A stretch of DNA of 64,000 nt from Candidatus Xianfuyuplasma coldseepsis (GTDB lineage Bacteria > Bacillota_I > Bacilli_A > Izemoplasmatales > Izemoplasmataceae): positions 1,206,698 through 1,270,697 of the forward strand of contig NZ_CP048914.1 of NCBI RefSeq assembly GCF_014023125.1, in the 5' to 3' direction. Both the position numbers and the translations under genes were made by a program. Position 1 is the first letter of the stretch, and every line of letters begins with the position of its first letter. Positions 11,369 to 21,730 of the stretch are shown piece after piece. Below the pieces are notes generated by a model. That model did no database searches and had not been told where the DNA came from. It saw nothing but the letters and a program-made list of their open reading frames with translations.

Positions 11369-11390
11369 AAAGCCCTCGATGGGCTTTTTT
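11369..11390. terminator. terminator abutting the first 322-bp element
   Basis: AAAGCCC-TCGAT-GGGCTTT followed by T. In the empty site this hairpin would have served both the YwaF-like gene and the convergent GGDEF/HD-GYP gene. The element is inserted directly after its T tract, at TTTAT. Confidence 0.75.
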
Positions 11391-11392
11391 AT

Positions 11393-11714
11393 CGTTTCAT
11401 ATATAGAAGACTCCTTCTTCAAGCAAATTTTCGAAAATTTGGTAAGTGGGAGATGAATATATATCATTTCTGGTGCAGAAATGCTTTGCATTTTCGAAAA
11501 TATTGCGTTTTCTGCATTTTGCCACTTCTACAACAATATGATAGTATGCAAGTAGGTAAATAGTAGAAGGGAGTAAAAACAGAAAACAAAAGAATAGATA
11601 TTACATAGAGGATGGGACAACCTTGATAGCTCGATTGATTTGCGCGCGATAGTGCGCATTACCCGAGAAGCCCCTACTTCAACAATACCTATTGTAAGTA
11701 GTGGGAGTGTTCAC
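11393..11714 (+). mobile_element. 322-bp IS200/IS605-like non-autonomous element, copy 1
   Basis: All 322 bases are identical to copy 2 at 21293-21614. The left side carries an 18-bp palindrome (CAAATTTTCGAAAATTTG) within a larger imperfect hairpin. The right end is GAAGCCCC-TACTT...AAGTA-GTGGGAGTGTTCAC, a hairpin typical of tnpB-linked IS200/IS605 right ends. It is preceded by TTTAT (11388-11392), a plausible target/TAM motif, and has no target duplication or terminal inverted repeats. No transposase ORF is present. Removing it joins TTTAT to TTATCTAG and restores an AAA-TAA end for the minus-strand gene at 11711. The repeat itself is certain; the family assignment is inference. Confidence 0.7.
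11519..11547 (+). promoter_or_regulatory. possible internal promoter of the element
   Basis: TTGCCA (11519-11524) and TAGTAT (11542-11547) are 17 nt apart. The predicted start near 11554 would give an RNA of about 160 nt reaching the right end of the element and then flanking DNA. The same sequence is present in copy 2 (21419-21447). Confidence 0.35.
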
Positions 11715-11734
11715 TTATCTAGATTATCGGAATC
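11554..11734 (+). ncRNA. putative omega/reRNA-like transcript, copy 1
   Basis: The right 160 nt of the element contain a small hairpin (GCGC-GATAGT-GCGC near 11644), the segment CATTACCCGAGAAGCCCC and the terminal hairpin. This is the arrangement expected of TnpB guide RNAs, in which the scaffold is the transposon right end and the guide is the adjacent flank (here starting TTATCTAGATTATCGG). No tnpB is in the window, so a partner protein would have to act in trans. The 3' end is an estimate. Confidence 0.35.
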
Positions 11735-20972: not shown

Positions 20973-21292
20973 GAGGATATATATGGATCATATTGTCTAT
21001 TTGGATTACAAATCTGAAGAACTGAATCATTTAATAGATGGTACAAAAGACATTATTTTGCGTGGGGCAACTGGGCGTAAGCTCCCTTATGGACGTGTCG
21101 CAATTGATGATACATTGTATTTTGTCAATAACAATGGTGAAGGATTGATAAAAGCGAAAGCAGTTGTACAAGAGGTGTACTTTTCGGACAAACTTACTAC
21201 TGACGAATCAAACGCAATGGTTGATGGGATTAGCCATCGTATCAAATTAAACAACAAAGCTTTGGTTCGATTCAGAGGTAAGAGATATTTAT

Positions 21293-21614
21293 CGTTTCAT
21301 ATATAGAAGACTCCTTCTTCAAGCAAATTTTCGAAAATTTGGTAAGTGGGAGATGAATATATATCATTTCTGGTGCAGAAATGCTTTGCATTTTCGAAAA
21401 TATTGCGTTTTCTGCATTTTGCCACTTCTACAACAATATGATAGTATGCAAGTAGGTAAATAGTAGAAGGGAGTAAAAACAGAAAACAAAAGAATAGATA
21501 TTACATAGAGGATGGGACAACCTTGATAGCTCGATTGATTTGCGCGCGATAGTGCGCATTACCCGAGAAGCCCCTACTTCAACAATACCTATTGTAAGTA
21601 GTGGGAGTGTTCAC
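21293..21614 (+). mobile_element. 322-bp IS200/IS605-like non-autonomous element, copy 2
   Basis: Identical in all bases to copy 1 (11393-11714) and in the same orientation. It is preceded by the same TTTAT (21288-21292) but the flanks otherwise differ, which fixes the ends. It interrupts the gene at 20983. The identity indicates recent movement. Features are as for copy 1: left palindrome, right-end hairpin ending GTGTTCAC, no coding capacity. Confidence 0.7.
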
Positions 21615-21634
21615 CAATAATCACAATAAAAGAC
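21454..21634 (+). ncRNA. putative omega/reRNA-like transcript, copy 2
   Basis: Same scaffold as copy 1, with the possible internal promoter at 21419-21447. The adjacent flank that would act as guide starts CAATAATCACAATAAA, which with the preceding TTTAT matches the empty form of this locus. The 3' end is an estimate. Confidence 0.35.
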
Positions 21635-21730
21635 GTTCAACAAGTACATGCTTTTTCGTTTGACAAAAGTGCATTCTCTAATATGGATGATTGGCTTCCA
21701 GTAAGATCGATTGATGATGTGAAATGATAG

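Follow-up and report, generated by a model that had tools for sequence, protein, structure and literature searches.

Locus, copies and extent of the element

The genome of Xianfuyuplasma coldseepsis zrk13 (Izemoplasmatales) is represented by one contig of 1,958,905 bp (PMC8397711), of which a window of 64,000 nucleotides was analysed here. Two copies of a 322-bp element lie on the forward strand of this window at positions 11393..11714 (copy 1) and 21293..21614 (copy 2), and comparison of the two sequences revealed no differences, as a first-pass annotation of the window had claimed. The limits that it had drawn were likewise borne out: both copies start directly after the pentamer TTTAT (11388..11392 and 21288..21292, forward strand), which we take to be the insertion site and a putative TAM, both end GTGTTCAC, and their flanks are unrelated. 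The repeat stands alone and no larger repeat contains it. The element is short and rich in hairpins, and a long open frame is absent.

Across the genome there are four full copies, at C1:1218090, 1227990 and 1353962 on the forward strand and at 802458 on the reverse strand, the latter with one mismatch. Read in the orientation of the element, TTTAT directly precedes all four, and also precedes nearly all related elements compared, with a few having TTTAC. Three additional loci of the host genome match the right end only; two of these adjoin tnpB genes, and the remaining one is an element of 441 bp from which tnpB has been deleted. Searches of plasmid and phage collections returned no match to the 322-bp element.

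Ends shared with tnpB- and tnpA-bearing elements

Subterminal imperfect palindromes are present at both ends of the element and share homology with those of an element that carries tnpA. The left-end imperfect hairpin, CTCCTTCTT..AAGTGGGAG (11411..11452, forward strand), has homologues in the left ends of both tnpB and tnpA+tnpB elements, and the right-end hairpin, CCCCTACTT..AAGTAGTGGG (11671..11705, forward strand), corresponds to helix 4 of the covariation analysis described below. The annotation's identification of a tnpB-less IS200/IS605 element was thus upheld, in that tnpB elements of the host genome and tnpA+tnpB elements of relatives were found that share the left and right hairpins, the scaffold and the TTTAT site.

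Two tnpB genes, both intact (384 and 389 codons; OrfB_IS605, Cas12f1-like_TNB), lie 5' of right-end-like loci in the host genome, within tnpB-only elements located at C1:449 kb and C1:1599 kb. Both elements start after TTTAT and have a scaffold as well as the left-end hairpin, and both encoded proteins align to ISDra2 TnpB (8h1j), including the RuvC D/E/D triad, the acidic positions of the first protein being D188, E272 and D352 as read from the alignments. The TTTAT site, left-end hairpin and reRNA fold are therefore common to these elements and the 322-bp element, but they differ in that the former encode TnpB, in their right ends, which finish GGGAGCAGGTTCAC as opposed to GGGAGTGTTCAC in the 322-bp element, and in scaffold subtype. 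The exact scaffold subtype of the 322-type elements (GGAUGGGACAACC) was not found with any tnpB, the host TnpBs being of the GAGUAUGGGACAGAC subtype, and hence we infer the compatibility of the 322-type scaffold with the host TnpBs.

A complete element encoding both a Y1 TnpA and a TnpB, with ends matching those of the 322-bp element, was identified in a related genome (G013, L068). A Y1 tnpA gene was not found in the host genome with either PF01797 or the G013 TnpA protein (the latter search having no positive control there), and past mobilisation would therefore have used a transposase that was since lost or came from outside. The 322-bp element itself is also devoid of the Y1 tnpA gene that an autonomous IS200/IS605 element would carry. 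It instead has the characteristics of a PATE, being too short to encode a transposase and having near-terminal palindromes, IS605-type ends and no target duplication. It was probably mobilised in trans by a TnpA, with past transposition implied by the four near-identical copies.

Gene-less elements of this kind have precedents in the PATEs of Haloquadratum and the PATE-like element of Halanaerobium hydrogeniformans (PMC3119063, PMC7290912), which are likewise described as having near-terminal IS605-type palindromes, no target duplication and a presumed dependence on TnpA in trans. The Halanaerobium element (PMC7290912) additionally retains the 3' end of tnpB together with the right end, as is the case here.

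Insertion sites and an interrupted gene

Copy 2 interrupts a 140-codon gene, of which the 5' part lies at 20983..21292 and the 3' part at 21615..21727, both on the forward strand. When the flanks of this copy are joined, with no extra bases, an otherwise broken open frame of 168 codons is restored, running open to 21727. A 140-residue reading of the joined frame is matched over its full length by an uninterrupted homologue from another genus (G012:C2:147750-148169, 55% identity). On the basis of the restored frame and the intact homologue, copy 2 was inserted precisely into the gene without target duplication. Members of the IS200/IS605 family behave in this way, inserting 3' of a short, fixed target and leaving no target duplication. 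The 140-residue protein has no family match in Pfam; it is disrupted here and intact in only one other genome among the 90 searched in the order.

Regarding the other sites, the copy at C1:1353962 occupies a palindrome loop, and copy 1 (11393) is preceded by a terminator-like hairpin. A terminator-like stem followed by a T-run was seen before 10 of 34 insertion sites and 30 of 325 TTTAT sites in the window (Fisher p = 0.0017), a comparison that used an ad hoc stem rule, 34 sites drawn from several loci and a background from one genome only. Joined-flank searches for empty sites in three genus mates gave partial matches only, with no clean empty site.

The small size, abundant hairpins and lack of a long open frame would also suit an unrelated repeat dispersed between genes, REP/BIME-like or otherwise, whose hairpins arose by chance. 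This candidate was refuted by the homologous ends in tnpB and tnpA+tnpB elements, the fixed TTTAT and the insertion inside a gene.

Promoter and leader region

The annotation had also proposed an internal promoter, TTGCCA-N17-TAGTAT, which is present at 11519..11547 on the forward strand with an extended -10 TG and is directed toward the right end. The motif by itself is unremarkable (2 found against 1.6 expected), and it is the conservation of its positions in three relatives that lends the proposal weight: across the element and these relatives, the hexamer and TG columns have a pairwise identity of 79% versus 45% for the spacer, with TGNTATAAT occurring in two of the elements. The -10 of the 322-bp element is the weakest of the family, and the promoter is missing from two related elements of G016.

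Just 5' of the promoter lies a conserved box (11495..11518, forward strand), with pairwise identities of 79-96% among four 322-type elements versus 50-72% just upstream. The conservation of this 24-base box across genera about equals that of the scaffold, and the tnpB elements compared showed no such box; among the loci examined, its core 19-mer is confined to 322-type elements. Downstream of the promoter, GAAGGGAG (11567..11574, forward strand) is a probable relic of a tnpB ribosome-binding site, judging from its position and a comparison by eye with the tnpB leader of locus L070.

A reRNA scaffold overlaps the right end

A reRNA (omega RNA) scaffold was delineated at 11608..11714 on the forward strand, where it overlaps the right end. 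A covariance model, built from tnpB-less and tnpB-linked right ends, matches this segment over model positions 1-115 in the four copies and also beside the tnpB genes, and overall it matches 7/7 right ends of the host genome; right ends were found in 14/90 genomes of the order. The reRNA-like character claimed for this end is supported by both homology to tnpB-linked right ends and a covarying fold. The fold covaries when the tnpB-less elements are taken by themselves. Rfam did not recognise it, giving no match in the window at gathering score and nothing relevant at E values up to 1. The scaffold pattern had no exact match in viral contigs.

When the 13 distinct tnpB-less scaffolds were considered alone, 95.3% of cells were in standard pairs and double changes occurred in 11/28 pairs of the structure. 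Double-changed cells numbered 38 versus 12.7 +/- 2.7 in shuffles, a signal abolished by sliding the partners. The shuffles take no account of relatedness, and some of the variation may date from tnpB-bearing ancestors. Compensatory changes among tnpB-less elements were evident in helix 3, the hairpin GCGCGC-GATA-GTGCGC (11642..11657, forward strand). From the alignment and its ISDra2 counterpart, GGAC at 11615..11618 (forward strand) is proposed to form the 5' strand of a pseudoknot with GUUC at 11709-11712. In ISDra2 the pseudoknot pairs -105..-103 with -5..-3 (PMC10097598), and by sequence match a putative GRAC/GUUC pairing can be placed at these positions in nearly all elements.

The scaffold resembles the ISDra2 TnpB reRNA/omega RNA (PMC8612924, PMC10097598) in its nearly equal length, its overlap with the tnpB 3' end and right end, the proposed terminal UUC pseudoknot, the 5' pentamer as putative TAM and the predicted use of the flank as guide. 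The two differ in that the ISDra2 RNA derives from the tnpB-bearing element itself, at the site TTGAT, whilst the 322-bp element lacks tnpB and occupies TTTAT. The functional ISDra2 scaffold comprises 116 nt, with sequence upstream being dispensable (PMC10097598). Among 14 tnpB-less elements, grouped by eye into about five lineages, homology to the tnpB 3' end falls to background roughly 10 nt upstream of GGGACA, approximately 110 nt from the right end and so near the ISDra2 scaffold length. Between 322-type elements of different genera, scaffold identity is 80-95%, versus 50-73% in the LE-distal and leader segments that flank the promoter.

A family of gene-less elements

Elements alike over most of the 322-bp length were identified in G026 (83% identity) and in one other genus (G017, 77%; G016, 80%); none was found in the three genus mates. 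Other tnpB-less elements with a full scaffold span 174 to 506 bp, among them 441 bp in the host genome, 506 bp in G027, 317 and 174 bp in G015, 241 bp in G018 and 369 bp in G055. Many MAG contigs stop near the elements, and no ratio of tnpB-less to tnpB-bearing elements was drawn. Outside the order, the scaffold was weakly matched in a genome from a different family of the class (G138:C2:49530-49631, L198), with no tnpB in the 1.6 kb upstream.

G018 additionally harbours hairpin-only elements (L141-L145) of roughly 65 bp after TTTAT, in which the left half of the left end is fused to the right half of the right end. These are without a scaffold, yet near-identical copies occupy several different TTTAT sites. 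Further hairpin-only loci were noted at L140, L149, L151, L153 and L155.

These comparisons bear on whether the 322-bp element is simply an ordinary PATE, that is, a deletion derivative moved by TnpA in trans, in which the reRNA stretch is a passive leftover or a right-end requirement of transposition and has no guide function. Core-deletion IS605-type PATEs have been described (PMC3119063), one PATE-like element retains the last 58 nt of tnpB and the whole right end (PMC7290912), and copies that are near-identical, and hence young, could retain neutral sequence. A leftover would sit poorly, however, with a scaffold that covaries and is more conserved between genera than adjacent sequence, or with several lineages having cut the tnpB 3' sequence at nearly one place, and a transposition requirement is at odds with the mobility of the scaffold-free hairpin-only relatives. 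We consider this explanation unlikely, though deserving of some weight. Because the hairpin-only relatives of about 65 bp apparently moved without it, the scaffold has probably been retained for TnpB, as opposed to transposition.

In its last 40-45 bases, the 322-type element of G026 (G026:C34, L010/L079) has the right-end type seen in tnpB elements. This arrangement suggests an exchange of ends by recombination, and some scaffolds may have been kept through recombination with tnpB elements, of which the G026 right end would be an example.

A proposed guide RNA element served by TnpB in trans

By analogy with ISDra2 (PMC8612924), the predicted 16-nt guides would be provided by the flanking chromosome, being TTATCTAGATTATCGG (11715..11730) for copy 1 and CAATAATCACAATAAA (21615..21630) for copy 2, both on the forward strand. 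Our principal interpretation, to which we assign a probability of about two in three, is that the 322-bp element is a non-autonomous IS200/IS605 element of the PATE type that has kept both ends, a promoter and a complete reRNA scaffold, has lost the coding sequences of tnpA and tnpB, and would supply a guide to a host TnpB in trans. With ends, promoter and an intact scaffold but no genes, it has the appearance of a parasite that borrows both the transposase and the RNA-guided nuclease of its full-size relatives.

Insertion precisely after TTTAT, ends common to tnpB and tnpA+tnpB elements, a covarying scaffold and a conserved promoter position are observed. The remaining steps, namely TnpA acting in trans, an RNA that reaches the flank, loading of a TnpB encoded elsewhere and cleavage followed by restoration, are proposed. 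A Y1 TnpA supplied in trans would excise and insert the element as single-stranded DNA, and the internal promoter would then drive an RNA through the right end into approximately 16 nt of the flank. A TnpB whose gene lies elsewhere in the genome could load this RNA and cut TTTAT plus guide, which is the site copy lacking the element, and repair from the occupied copy would restore the element after the cut. Since the flank is the guide, every new insertion would hand the shared TnpB a new guide. A drive-like benefit, by which TnpB cuts empty sites such that occupied copies prevail, has been described for a tnpB-bearing IS200/605 element in plasmids (PMC11870625); here a comparable benefit is proposed for an element that would borrow its TnpB.

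The RNA could instead be a decoy or regulator that titrates the TnpB of autonomous elements without useful cleavage. The presence of four element copies against two tnpB genes, and of a promoter belonging to the element, would be compatible with titration, but each copy retains a flank guide that is contiguous with it, as well as an insertion matched to TTTAT, and cleavage needs nothing more; no sign of regulation supports the idea. We regard it as very improbable.

A broader form of our guide-supply interpretation is that selection favours a guide-only existence for transposons, as gene-less elements with a promoter and reRNA that parasitise both TnpB and TnpA, and that a stand-alone TnpB serves dispersed, trans-acting guides that defend insertions even without a detectable transposase. 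We advance this only tentatively, as somewhat doubtful at present. At least five guides would then be available to the host TnpBs, four from the 322-type copies and one from the 441-bp element.

Gene-less IS605 derivatives are already known, and we do not claim a first report; what is added, and is well supported, is a promoter and an apparently maintained guide-RNA scaffold. Guide RNA is not discussed in the available parts of the PATE reports (PMC3119063, PMC7290912), whereas the elements described here preserve, in more than one genus, a promoter and a 107-nt scaffold that covaries, in contrast to their hairpin-only relatives. If our interpretation is correct, guide RNA function without a nuclease gene would suffice for selection in a mobile element, and the proposed role of TnpB in retention would become testable on natural material, by comparing, within the same lineages, elements that have a scaffold with those that do not. 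There would then also be a natural case in which several guides, each encoded separately, serve a single Cas12 ancestor, and the CRISPR-Cas12 arrangement needs such a step.
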